Below are positions 3,893 through 61,273 of a stretch of 64,000 bases of DNA, piece by piece (position 1 is the first letter of the stretch; each line of letters begins with the position of its first letter). The position numbers and the translations under genes are program-made. Source of the DNA: a bacterium (GTDB taxonomy: Bacteria > Desulfobacterota > Deferrisomatia > Deferrisomatales > Deferrisomataceae); contig JALUTY010000034.1 of assembly GCA_027021615.1 (NCBI GenBank), positions 62,001-126,000 of the forward strand, given 5' to 3'. The notes below the pieces were generated by a model. The model ran no database searches. It was given only the letters and a program-made list of their open reading frames with translations, and was not told where the DNA came from.

Positions 3893-3969
3893 TGGTGCCC
3901 CCGGCAGGGCTCGAACCTGCGACTCCAGGATTAGGAATCCTGTGCTCTATCCAACTGAGCTACGGGGGC
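3893..3969 (-). tRNA. tRNA-Arg (anticodon CCU)
   Basis: A complete cloverleaf on the minus strand. The acceptor stem GCCCCCG pairs with CGGGGGC. The D-loop region is TAGCTCAGTTGGATAGAGC, the anticodon stem CAGGA/TCCTG carries loop TTCCTAA (anticodon CCT in DNA), and the T-arm is GCAGGTTCGAACCTGC. The discriminator is A and CCA is encoded (plus-strand TGG at 3893-3895). It reads the rare AGG arginine codon. A good sigma-70-type promoter lies immediately upstream. Confidence 0.97.
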
Positions 3970-5282: not shown

Positions 5283-5465
5283 CGGAGACGAAAAGCCGGA
5301 AGATCCGGACGCCCTTTGCGAGAGTGCTGAGTGCCGGACGCGCACGCGGCACCTCACCTGGCCCCATGCCCCCGGCCACCTCGGCATCCGGGGCATATGG
5401 GGCCAACGGCCCAAAGAGGTTTGGAGCATCCTGATCTCCCCGCATCCCAACGTCCTGGCGGTAAG

Positions 5466-16849: not shown

Positions 16850-17392
16850 ATGCCCGCCCGGGTTCGTTCGCTGCTTTGGCGATTCGGTCCGCCGGTCCTG
16901 TACATGGCCGCGGTGTTCGGTCTGTCCAACTCGTCGCACCCCCCCCTGCCCCGTTTCGTGTGGGTGTTGGGTGACAAGCCCCTGCACGCCCTGGAGTACG
17001 TGCCGATGGGGTACCTGTGGGCCCGGGCGTTGGGGGTCCGGGGCCGCCGGGGGCTCGTGTGGGGGCTCCTGGCCGCGGCCGCGTTCGGCGCGACCGACGA
17101 GGTGCACCAGTGGTTCGTGCCCCGCCGCCAGCCCAGCTGGCTCGACTGGGTGGCGGACCTGGTGGGGGCTTCGGTGGGGGTGGGGCTGTGGGCCGCTGTG
17201 CGGGGCCTGCTGCCGACAGGAAGGGGTCGGCCGCCGCCCCGGGCCCAGCCCCCAGCCCCGTGGCCGGCGGCAAAGACCGCAGCCGACCCCCTTTCGAGTG
17301 CTGCTGACGCCGCTCCACCGTCCGCGGAATCTGCGACCCTTTCCTCGGGGAGTACGGGGGGGAAGCGCCGGGCGTCGAGATTCGCCATGTAG
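16850..17392 (+). CDS. VanZ-like membrane protein with low-complexity C-terminal tail
   Basis: Residues 1-115 have the VanZ fold: four hydrophobic helices, KPLHALEYVPMGYLWARAL with the family His, and ATDEVHQWFVPRRQPSWLDWVADLVGA with the conserved DExxQ-like and DW residues. The ATG at 16850 follows GAGGAG. VanZ-type proteins are usually about 120-130 residues. The remaining 50-55 residues are Pro/Ala/Ser-rich, and the end of the frame (GKRRASRFAM) reads straight into a dispersed intergenic repeat block at about 17364-17412. The tail may therefore be a repeat-derived extension. The molecular function of VanZ-like proteins outside vancomycin clusters is not established. Confidence 0.8.
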   Translation: MPARVRSLLWRFGPPVLYMAAVFGLSNSSHPPLPRFVWVLGDKPLHALEYVPMGYLWARALGVRGRRGLVWGLLAAAAFGATDEVHQWFVPRRQPSWLDWVADLVGASVGVGLWAAVRGLLPTGRGRPPPRAQPPAPWPAAKTAADPLSSAADAAPPSAESATLSSGSTGGKRRASRFAM

Positions 17393-17741
17393 GCACGGAA
17401 CAGGGAAGTTGGTTTCGTTCCAACTCCTATAGAATACATACTAAGGCGTACGAAGGTATTGCCGGATGCGGGTGGGGGACTGGCTCCGGCCGGGCGCGAG
17501 TGCGGCACCCTTTTCGCCGCGCCTTCGCATGCCGTTGTCAGCCCGGTGGGCCGGGGCGCCGGTGGCGGAAGTTCCGGAACTTCCAAGGCGATTCAGGCTT
17601 GGTGAGGGCGCGGCGACGTGAGGGGCTGCGCCCGGCTTGCTCTTCGGCAGATCCCTTCCACCCCGATTAGGGGGGAGGGAGCCTCTATTTTGCCGCCGGC
17701 TCAAGAGTCCGGGCGCCGACTCGACGACGGAGGGACGGACC
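17393..17741. other. Intergenic region: repeat fragment, palindrome, likely promoter of the two-component operon
   Basis: The gap begins inside a repeat block shared with 33810-33865 (GCCGGGC.TTGAGATTCGCC...GGCACGG). An A/T-richer patch at 17409-17450 includes TATAGAATACATACT and is the likely promoter area, though no box pair with good spacing stands out. A perfect palindrome lies at 17567-17584. No gene is seen. Confidence 0.5.
17567..17584. promoter_or_regulatory. 18-bp perfect palindrome, candidate operator
   Basis: GGAAGTTCCGGAACTTCC is its own reverse complement. It stands 158 bases before the GTG of the OmpR-type regulator gene. There is no T-tract, so a terminator role is unlikely; a dimeric regulator binding site is the simplest reading, perhaps autoregulation. 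This is inference. Confidence 0.4.
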
Positions 17742-28966: not shown

Positions 28967-29011
28967 GTGGGGGCATGGGGCCTGCTTCCGGCCGCGCGAA
29001 GCCGGGCGTCA
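28967..29011. repeat. Dispersed repeat block (GGGGCATGGGG core) overlapping flhB stop
   Basis: GGTGGGGGCATGGGGCCTGC and TTCCGGCCGCGCGAAGCCGG follow each other here and match 33777-33815 almost base for base; an inverted copy is at 46361-46395. The block reaches the flhB stop codon at 29009-29011, so the last bases of flhB may have been fixed by the repeat. Confidence 0.65.
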
Positions 29012-33554: not shown

Positions 33555-34204
33555 GGCGCCCTTTCCAGCGACTTCGGCTAGGAGGTTAGGAGGCTCGGAG
33601 GCCAGGAGGCTCGAAAACCTCTTTGATATCCAAGTGTTCTCGACACAACCGGCCTCTACGCCACCACCTCACGCCCCGGGGGCATAGGTTTCAGGGGCCA
33701 GACTTCAGCTCCAGTAGACCGCGAGGCGGCCTGTTTGCGAAGAAATAACTCGAACCGACCCCCGCACAGTTTCGGCGGTGGGGCATGGGGTCCGCTTCCG
33801 GCCGCGCGCGAAGCCGGGCATTGAGATTCGCCGCGCTGGCACGGGGCACCAACGGTGGTTTCATGGCAGTCCGGGCCCCCCGAGACCACGAGGTGGCCCC
33901 AAAAAGGCGGGGCCATGTTTGGAACCCTCTGGAATCAACTAGGTTTTCACGCGTCCCAGCATCCTAGCGGAAGGTACTTGGAAGAAGCCGGTGGACAGGG
34001 AGAAGGCTCTTCGATGCCCCGAGAGGATCCCCCCGGGAACCCGAACTACTTTTCGGGATTTCCTGCCTCCTGTCCGCTGAATTCCGGTTTCTGAAATCCA
34101 TGCCCTGCTGCCGGCAACGGCCCCGGACCCGACCCGGTTCCCGTCCCTTGTTGCCCTGCCCGCCAGGGGCCTGAGAGGCCTCTCCTTTACCATGGTCTCC
34201 GAAG
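33555..34204. repeat. Intergenic region built from dispersed repeat blocks
   Basis: No gene is supported here. Bases 33571-33687 (TAGGAGGCTCGG units, then CTCTTTGATATCC, GACACAACC and CACCTCACGCCCCGGGGGC) match 46241-46348 in the same orientation. Bases 33777-33853 (GGGGCATGGGGTCCGCTTCC, GCCGCGCGCGAAGCCGGG, TTGAGATTCGCC, GGCACGG) match 28967-29008, 17364-17400 and, inverted, 46361-46395. Near 34168 GGGGCCTGAGAGGC recalls 61035-61048. The promoter for fliL should be in or upstream of this gap. Confidence 0.6.
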
Positions 34205-46240: not shown

Positions 46241-46395
46241 TGGGAAGCTAGAAAGCTGGGAGGCTAGGAAGCCCAAACCCTCTTTGCTGCCTGAGCGTTC
46301 CAGACACAACCACGCCTCTGGGCCACCCTCTCACGCTCCGGGGGCACGAGGTCTGTGGGAGAGCCGCGCGCGGCCGGAAGCGGGCCCCATGCCCC
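46241..46395. repeat. Repeat blocks between fleS and fleR
   Basis: Bases 46241-46348 (GCTAGAAAGCTGGGAGGCTA, then CCTCTTTGC, GACACAACC, CACCCTCTCACGCTCCGGGG) match 33571-33687 in the same orientation. Bases 46361-46395 (GCCGCGCGCGGCCGGAAGCG, then GGCCCCATGCCCC) are an inverted copy of 28971-29000 and 33781-33812. The remaining bases to 46432 show no gene. The insertion splits what is normally an adjoining kinase-regulator pair. Confidence 0.65.
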
Positions 46396-46432
46396 GTCCG
46401 ACGAGAACTCTCGGTTTGAACGCGACTCGGTA

Positions 46433-47650
46433 TCACGGTTCGGGGGGCGTGGCCCTCAGCCGGTCCGCCGGGAACGACAGGGTGAACCGGGCTCCTCCCC
46501 AGGGGGAGCCGTCCACTGCCACCCAGCCGCCGTGGGCCGCCACGATCCGCTGGACGATGGCGAGCCCCAGCCCCACCCCCCGGGCCCGGGTGGTGTAGAA
46601 CGGGTCGAAGATCCGCTCCCGCTCCTCCTCCGGCACTCCCGGGCCGTTGTCCCACACGCACACCCGCGCCGCCGCAGGCTCCTCGGAGCCCCCCGACGCG
46701 CACTCCACCCGAACCCTCCCTCCCGCTTCCACGGCCTGGGCCGCGTTGAGCATAACGTTCAGCAGGGCCTGGCGGACCAGGTCCGGGTCCACCCGCACCG
46801 GCGCCGGACAAAGGTCCTCCTCCAGGATCGCCCCCTTGGCTCGGATCGCTGACCGAGCGTAGACAGCCGCCTCGGCCACCACCTCACTCAGGTCGACCGC
46901 TTGACACCGCGGCTCAACCTGCCGCGCAAACAGAAGCAGGTTCCCCGTGATCCGGGAGAGGTTTTGGAGCCCCTTGAGCACCTGACCCGCGAGGTCCTCG
47001 TGGGCTGTGCCCCGCAGCTCCCCCACCAGGTGGTGGGCGAACAGCTCCAGGCTGCCCAGTGGGTTCCGGATCTCGTGGGCGATGCCGGCGGCCATCTGGC
47101 CCATGGCCACCAAGCGCCGGTTCCGCTCCTCCTGCTCCTCGAGCAGCCGCAGGCGGGTCACATCCTGGAACACCACCACCCGTCCCAGCACCTCCCCGAC
47201 CTCCCCGCGGAGAGGCGACACCCGAAGCCCCAACAACACCCTGCGGCCGTCACCCCGGTTCAGGGTGACGACCGGCCTCGAAACGGCCTCCAGCGCGTCG
47301 AGATCGGCCTCGGCCGGGTCCTCGAACCGGAACACCTGGGAGAACGGCTTCCCCACGGCCTCCGGTCCGAACCCCGTGATCTCCTGGGCAGCCCGGTTCA
47401 GAGTCGAGATCCGGCCCTCCGGGTCCACGGCCACCACCCCGCTGGGCACGCTCTCCAACAGGTGCTCCAGATAGCTCGTGAGGCGGGCCCTCTCCGTCAG
47501 GGAGCGGTCCAGCTCCCGGTCCTTCGCCTCCAAGCGCCTGCGGAGCTCTCGCACCTCGTCCTGGAGCCTGGCGTACGATCCCTGGAGCCGTTCGGTGGCC
47601 TCTTGGAACCTCAGCATTGCCTCCCGAAGCTCCTCGGGGATCGCGGTCAC
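46433..47650 (-). CDS. fleS: FleS-like PAS histidine kinase
   Basis: A 405-residue soluble kinase without membrane segments. A coiled coil (about residues 8-60) precedes a PAS domain (LLESVPSGVVAVDPEGRIST...NRAAQEITGFGPEAVGKPFS). The HisKA motif is AAGIAHEIRNPLGSLELF, and ATPase boxes are LLNVMLNAAQAVEAGG, VWDNGPGVPEEE, FDPFYTTRARG and VGLGLAIVQRI. It is closest to FleS/AtoS-type kinases working with NtrC-like partners, here the FleR-like regulator. GTG start overlaps the TPR gene stop (GTGA). Confidence 0.88.
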   Translation of the reverse strand: MTAIPEELREAMLRFQEATERLQGSYARLQDEVRELRRRLEAKDRELDRSLTERARLTSYLEHLLESVPSGVVAVDPEGRISTLNRAAQEITGFGPEAVGKPFSQVFRFEDPAEADLDALEAVSRPVVTLNRGDGRRVLLGLRVSPLRGEVGEVLGRVVVFQDVTRLRLLEEQEERNRRLVAMGQMAAGIAHEIRNPLGSLELFAHHLVGELRGTAHEDLAGQVLKGLQNLSRITGNLLLFARQVEPRCQAVDLSEVVAEAAVYARSAIRAKGAILEEDLCPAPVRVDPDLVRQALLNVMLNAAQAVEAGGRVRVECASGGSEEPAAARVCVWDNGPGVPEEERERIFDPFYTTRARGVGLGLAIVQRIVAAHGGWVAVDGSPWGGARFTLSFPADRLRATPPEP

Positions 47651-60733: not shown

Positions 60734-61273
60734 CGAACCCTCCGGCAAAGGACTCGCGAGCCGCCCTTCCTAACCCAAACGAGGGCGTTTCGCAACCCCT
60801 GTTCCCGTGTCGGCCCGGCTCCGGCCGGCACGGTTGCCCGGAGGCGGGCCCACGCCGTATGCTTCCAGGTAACTTCGGTCGTTGGTCGTCAGTCGTTGGT
60901 CGTCGGTCGGGGGCCTTCGGCCCGCTAGGCGGCTAGGCTGCTAGGCCGCTAGGCGGCCGGGCCGCTTCCCTGAACCGCCGCCGGCGATGGTTCTGGAGCA
61001 ACGAACGTTACCCTCCCCGTTGTACAGCCCCGTAGGGGGCCTGAGAGACTTCCAGGTAACTTCGGTCTACGGTCGTCGGTCGAAGGTCTTCGGTCGAAAG
61101 CTCGTCCCGATATCGGAGCCGGGGGGCATGGGGGCTGGTGGAGCGTCCGCCTGCCCCACAGGCCGAGGTTCCAAAGATTTTTCTAGTTTCTAGTCTCTAG
61201 TCTCTAGACGGCCCCGTAGGGGCCTGAGGGGGCTTCCCAGTCTCTTCAGCCTAAATCCAGAAAGGAGCGACCC
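60734..61273. repeat. Intergenic repeat array upstream of the uridylyltransferase gene
   Basis: No gene is seen. The segment TTCCAGGTAACTTCGGTC occurs exactly at 60863-60880 and 61050-61067, each followed by short GGTCGTCGGTCG-type units. GCTAGGC units repeat at 60928-60957. CCCCGTAGGGGCCTGAG-like blocks occur at 61028-61045 and 61212-61228, containing GGCCCC/GGGGCC hairpins. TCTAGT units fill 61182-61210, and an inverted relative lies at 5251-5282. GGGGGGCATGGGGG near 61119-61132 resembles the cores at 28971 and 33781. AAAGGAG at about 61261 belongs to the next gene. Confidence 0.7.

Follow-up and report, generated by a model that had tools for sequence, protein, structure and literature searches.

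A modular family of palindromic intergenic repeats with MITE-like features in a Deferrisomatales genome and its relatives

Repeat modules in the window

The stretch of DNA analysed here (64,000 nucleotides, hereafter the window) contains a gap between genes, at 33571-34180, in which a D1 module on the minus strand, a U2 module, a left arm with half of a type-A core, a second D1, a repeat X and a U1 fragment (the last two on the minus strand) follow one another. Parts of this series, and modules of the same family, were located in the window as follows.

5341..5372, plus strand: right-arm fragment (81% over 32 nt, E 9e-5)
17367..17416, plus strand: fragment of a type-A core (76% over 50 nt; covariance model E 0.004)
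17456..17664, plus strand: element of frame F5 with differing arm sequences and a type-B core (F5 left end 87% over 46 nt; core B 65.5% over 119 nt; covariance model E 0.001)
28970..28998, plus strand: truncated left arm with the first core bases, an arm stub (29/29 to the left-arm consensus)
33609..33679, minus strand: flanking module D1, the CTCTTTG...GACACAACC block (73.6% over 72 nt, E 6e-9)
33711..33779, plus strand: upstream module U2 (98.6% over 69 nt to other copies)
33780..33874, plus strand: left arm and 5' half of a type-A palindromic core, truncated
33880..33953, plus strand: downstream module D1 (87.8% over 74 nt, E 3e-21)
33984..34129, minus strand: X repeat (33984-34074), then U1 fragment (34107-34129)
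46275..46338, minus strand: D1 module beside the 55-bp form
46341..46395, minus strand: complete 55-bp internally deleted form, arm to arm (covariance model 48.2 bits, E 1e-7)
46409..46433, minus strand: U3 module, the terminal repeat of frame F3 (88% over 25 nt)
60862..61154, minus strand: composite of D2 and U1 with no palindromic core between them; right arm at 61123-61154

A preliminary description of the gap had named three shared cores, and all three are real: GGGGCATGGGG corresponds to the left arm, CGCGAAGCCGGGC to the beginning of core A, and CTCTTTG...GACACAACC to the flanking module D1, read on the reverse strand at 33609-33679 and 46275-46341. The unit drawn from them was however too small, since they are all parts of one larger composite. 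The copy placed at 17364-17412 is the type-A core fragment at 17367-17416; the partial copy near 5368-5393 is represented by the right-arm match at 5341-5372 only, and no probe matched the one placed at 556-601. The proposed modularity holds: a left module (U1 to U4, or none), a core (type A, B or C, or short) and a right module (D1 to D4, or none) are put together in many ways, and at some places, 60862-61154 included, U1 adjoins D2 without any core. Imperfect heptamer-like tandem tracts (TAGGCGG, GACCGAC, TCTAGTT and CAGAAGA types) regularly border the composites, for example at 60862-61238.

It had been allowed that the copies might not exceed the similarity found by chance in shuffled sequence. 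Self-comparison of the window revealed three pairs (28964-29007/33775-33819 at 55.4 bits and, in inverted orientation, 33780-33810/46395-46365 at 52.7 bits and 28970-28998/46395-46367 at 49.1 bits) above the top score of 45.5 bits among 20 dinucleotide shuffles. In the source genome (G000; 4.25 Mb, GC 69.6%) the 22-mer core pattern GGGGCATGGGGYCYGCTTCCGG, searched with up to 3 mismatches, gave 175 matches (77 forward and 98 reverse) against 2 (1 + 1) for the reversed pattern used as a control. The earlier observation is confirmed, and the family is larger than was first seen. Chance similarity in a GC-rich genome, which the base composition and the closeness of some window-only matches to noise might suggest, is already refuted by the genome-wide counts and deserves practically no credit.

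The palindromic unit and its paired substitutions

The unit was derived from 30 loci read individually and then from 70 paired elements, the sequence basis being the stretches around copies together with a sparse sampling of the congener G006. It has a core between a left arm GGGGCATGGGGYCYGCTTCCGGCCGCGCGCG and a right arm CCGCACGCGGCTCTCCAGCAGRCCCCATGCCCC, and forms an imperfect palindrome over its full length of about 187 bp, in which the arms of the common palindrome, GGGGCATGGGGYCTGCT and AGCAGRCCCCATGCCCC, enclose a core of type A, B or C or a short one. Units with an A or B core measure 184-191 bp and those with a C core mostly 193-208 bp, and internally deleted forms of 55, about 77-86 and 119 bp were also found. 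Taken together, the elements are non-coding, occur in many copies and measure 55-346 bp with variable indels, below the limit of about 600 bp that applies to MITEs; the arms of the palindrome are complementary and, as in MITEs, inverted repeats are present, also at the ends of frame F3 (see below).

A closer inspection of the type-A consensus (58 copies) showed a single rod from end to end, with 39 pairs and 98.1% of the cells paired. Double changes were counted in 39 cells, against 7.9 +/- 2.5 in shuffled alignments (reached in 0/500), and the signal was destroyed when the partner was slid by 1-3 columns. In type C (12 copies) double changes affect 12 of the 54 pairs. Kinship among the copies inflates all these counts. 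Typical exchanges in the arms are T-A to A-T (GCATGG to GCAAGG), T-A to C-G and C-G to G-C, and the double changes are almost all complete Watson-Crick exchanges, with G-U intermediates scarce among the variant pairs. The variants GCATGG, GCAAGG, GCGTGG and GCAGGG are each accompanied by matching right arms; such independent variants are difficult to account for through descent alone. In frame F5 (17456-17664 in the window, and locus L018) the arm sequences are different and still pair. Folding of the blocks, as suggested earlier, gave a divided result: the 187-nt consensus as single-stranded DNA folds 3.3 standard deviations better than shuffled sequences (z -3.3), but the z-score of the 55-bp form of the window is not significant.

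Frame F3, species comparison and the search for a partner enzyme

The outer ends of frame F3 (modules U3 and D3) are the inverted repeats TACCAAGTTGCGTTCAAA...TTTGAACGCAACTTGGTA, also denoted TACCAAGTTG, with the terminal sequence TACCAAGTTGCG. This pair of ends gave 104 matches in G000 and 134 in G006, and none in the reversed control. An exact 3-bp flanking duplication is present in 25 of 40 non-redundant F3 copies, a length of 2 or 4 bp fitting only 1/40. The duplicated triplets, TCA (12), TGA (9), TAA (2), TTA (1) and TTT (1), are mostly TNA and, among the copies with TNA on both sides, the middle base agrees in 24 and differs in 4 (p 2e-11 against 1/4). Some F3 copies measure 77-114 bp, having lost internal sequence but neither of the ends. 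Together with the duplication this is the mark of cut-and-insert transposition. Of the features that the preliminary description wished to see defined, a unit, a copy number, ends and a target duplication have been obtained, the last in frame F3; no clear duplication was seen in the main U1/U2-D1/D2 frames, and the site at L005 is ambiguous because of the flanking AGAGTTCAG repeats.

The range of the family was assessed in two congeners (G006 and G007), in a member of another genus of the family (G008) and in eight other genomes of the order. Matches to GGGGCATGGGGYCYGCTTCCGG numbered 175 in G000, 202 and 158 in the congeners and 19 in the other genus, with no excess over the control in the eight other genomes. 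The covariance model, with at most 150 candidates scored per genome, gave at least 144, 147, 134 and 47 matches in the four genomes and 0 in the remaining eight; the repeat is thus very common, at well over 140 places in G000 and its close relatives. Named records with the core pattern are Deferrisomatales and deltaproteobacterial MAGs. The order U1-arm-short core-arm-D1 is the same in G008, so this frame predates the genus split.

G006 and the contig of the window are collinear (about 90% identity), and these repeats are where many of the interruptions of collinearity fall. Eighteen G000 sites were compared singly with their G006 orthologues: 8/18 show an unbroken alignment, two more (L006 and L029) have their breaks beyond the limits of the element, and the repeat is present in both species at 10 or more of the 18. 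Composites are missing from G006 at L022 (393 vs 8 bp), L004 (473 vs 31 bp) and L005, as is an F5 copy near L018 (271 bp), and the remaining sites show partial differences. At L016 a core A in G000 stands opposite a core S (also found in L025) in G006, in the same frame and site and with one arm lost: the core has been replaced in place. As for the copies of the window, the left half at 33780..33874 is also present at the orthologous G006 site, U2 with the left core half is multi-copy in G006 at about 95% identity, and the block 33984..34129 has many further copies in G006 and G007 and is found in G008 too. At the site of the stub at 28970..28998, G006 has a composite of about 420 bp, and the 55-bp form at 46341..46395 is absent from the corresponding G006 site.

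An unseen enzyme had been proposed as the mover, and no matching transposase came to light among the DDE families PF01609 and PF13586 and the Y1 family (PF01797), none of which supplied a gene bearing F3 or core ends or an autonomous transposon with matching ends. PF13586 has no matches in three congeners. The PF01609 loci lack F3 ends, except for one IS lying within a copy; seven identical PF01609 copies were counted in G006. The exception, an IS4-type IS between two F3 ends (L182/L209), was rejected as a partner, being inserted into a copy with the short repeat GACTTACGCC on both sides; in G006 it occupies L182:430-1920, within an F3/type-C copy. Two long F3 pairs, of 959 bp (L180) and 1178 bp (L181), had the look of autonomous elements; in L180 no transposase reading frame was recognised. 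The Y1/RAYT loci (3 in G000 and 16 in the three relatives) were likewise discarded as partners, as no locus of the four genomes has the repeat on both sides.

Strand bias, competing explanations and related systems

The preliminary description had placed all copies in gaps between genes, in agreement with the 64 of 66 complete copies found outside genes predicted with a home-made codon-usage model (2/66 overlap one). In tandem gaps the copies lie in sense orientation rather than antisense, 46 vs 9 in G000 and 36 vs 17 in G006. In G006 the copy strand is arranged in Mb-scale blocks (neighbour agreement 68/100 against 51 expected, p 0.0004), fits the replichores derived from dnaA in 69/100 copies (p 2e-4) and tracks GC skew (odds ratio 6.4, p 2e-4). 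A joint model, for which the block borders were chosen partly after the data had been seen, gave a likelihood ratio of 14.4 for the replichore term and 0.7 for gene strand. The copies are therefore likely to be biased to the leading replication strand, at about 70%. In one region of G006 (C1, about 2.1-3.06 Mb) nearly all copies are on the plus strand, though dnaA (3.127 Mb) implies the opposite replichore; GC skew there is near zero, and a recent large inversion is possible.

These data bear on several explanations. A structured RNA or cis-acting mRNA element, transcribed as a hairpin between co-directional genes and controlling their processing or stability, would account for the intergenic location, the sense orientation and the covarying stem. 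However, the G000 orientation bias as a sign of RNA function is weakened by G006, where the replichore explains it better than the flanking genes; G-U intermediates are scarce, the cores are freely deleted or exchanged, and a search of the window with Rfam 15 gave no RNA family for the repeat, the only match being a tRNA gene (3896-3969, minus strand). An RNA role is thus improbable. Elements of the REPIN/TIR type, single-stranded hairpins moved by a RAYT/TIRYT tyrosine (HUH/Y1) transposase that targets the lagging-strand template, agree with the replication-linked strand, and the full-length hairpin with compensatory changes is as described for REPINs (PMC3116915); Y1 genes are present, and families with long TIRs are known for RAYT-like genes (PMC3733652). 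Against this, the Y1 genes in G000, G006, G007 and G008 are unflanked by the repeat, and the single copy beside a RAYT gene (F5 type, in L036) was not found at the G006 orthologue. F3 has a 3-bp target duplication, which HUH transposition is not known to make. No GTAG or CGTC tag at the base of the hairpin was visible in a non-systematic inspection of the copies and alignments. This route is unlikely, and the preliminary label of REP-like stands for the general features of extragenic palindromes only, as the unit measures about 187 bp instead of 20-40 bp. A polar sequence marking replichore direction for chromosome organisation, which the Mb-scale strand blocks might suggest, is very improbable: polarity reaches only about 70%, decayed copies are tolerated, and the arms carry no direction because they are near-palindromic.

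The MITE-like label fares better, given the inverted-repeat transposon ends and 3-bp target duplication of frame F3. The family is probably an old and mosaic superfamily of MITE-like, non-autonomous elements whose movement in trans would be due, at least in part, to a TNA-duplicating (IS5/IS1031-like) transposase. The blocks of the window would be decayed and recombined copies of this genus-level superfamily, with the long imperfect palindrome as the common part, carried in several outer frames. A DDE transposase acting in trans would have cut at the F3 ends and, through staggered cutting, brought about the insertion of the element; it is the most likely agent there because the TACCAAGTTGCGTTCAAA inverted repeats are bordered by the 3-bp TNA duplication. 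The IS1031 group of the IS5 family has a stated target preference for TNA with a 3-bp repeat (PMC12016507). As no autonomous partner was found, it may have been lost or have gone unrecognised. The U1/U2 frames with D1/D2 are probably the outcome of insertions beside or inside other repeats and of recombination among hundreds of copies, which would also swap cores in place, and the pairing of the arms may be kept either through a need for the palindrome in movement or by the arms correcting each other. Against the MITE-like reading stand the missing partner transposase, the main frames without a clear target duplication, and the replication-strand bias, which is not usual for a simple DDE MITE. 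A more tentative possibility, rather unlikely on present data, is that the palindromic core, selected for pairing and not for sequence, serves as a chassis exchanged among unrelated frames and inserted in a replication-coupled manner on the leading strand, its parts recombining in place.

Bacterial MITEs such as ERIC/IRU, Correia/NEMIS, RUP and YPAL/RU-2 (PMC2229807) are likewise short, non-coding, intergenic and hairpin-forming, with inverted ends and no transposase of their own, and the target duplication has its counterpart here in frame F3; in contrast, the present family is GC-rich, has several unrelated outer frames around one palindromic core, and shows neither a TA-type duplication nor a partner IS. 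The nearest modular precedent is the BOX elements of Streptococcus (PMC3049150), composites of variable length with end modules around variable centres and with alternative end modules in S. suis, as here; the differences lie in the lack of tandem boxB arrays, the whole unit being one covarying palindrome, and the phylum and sequence. REPINs and RAYT/TIRYT-linked repeats (PMC3116915, PMC3733652) share the palindromic, extragenic nature, the compensatory changes, the hundreds of copies and the occurrence in genomes with Y1 genes, but differ from the present units in length, linkage to Y1 genes, the 3-bp duplication in F3 and the GTAG tag, not seen here. The IS1031 group (PMC12016507) has the same target preference and duplication length as F3, whereas TACCAAGTTGCG, at the termini of F3, does not resemble the GAACCTG end of its member ISLrh, and the models used revealed no such transposase in the genus (PF13586 absent). 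No paper on Deferrisoma repeats was found in the literature searched. As far as the searches reached (Rfam and literature), the family is new in sequence, although its kind, a MITE-like bacterial repeat, is already known.

The family offers a bacterial case of one palindromic core housed in several transposon frames; its copies show paired substitutions, one or more core replacements in place and a replication-strand bias. It makes testable whether the arm complementarity of small mobile palindromes is maintained by selection on the hairpin or by one arm correcting the other, and whether an exchange of termini can re-target non-autonomous elements. There is also a caution for Deferrisomatales genomes, in which repeats may lie behind intergenic 'genes' and breaks in the assembly.

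Two further repeats were met at these loci. Repeat Y, at 619-802 of the window, has the ends CTAGCCCGCA..ATTCATGA / TTCATGAATCATGCGGGTTAG, with more copies in C34 and L036; the window segment that holds it (537-1094) is absent from G006, and at L034:5297-5614 an IS200-type Y1 transposase gene is cut short where a Y repeat starts. Family Z (GGTGGGGCTGGGGGCCCCTCC..., about 150 bp) lies at L214 of G006, opposite L006 of G000, from which it is absent, and a related copy is present in L230.
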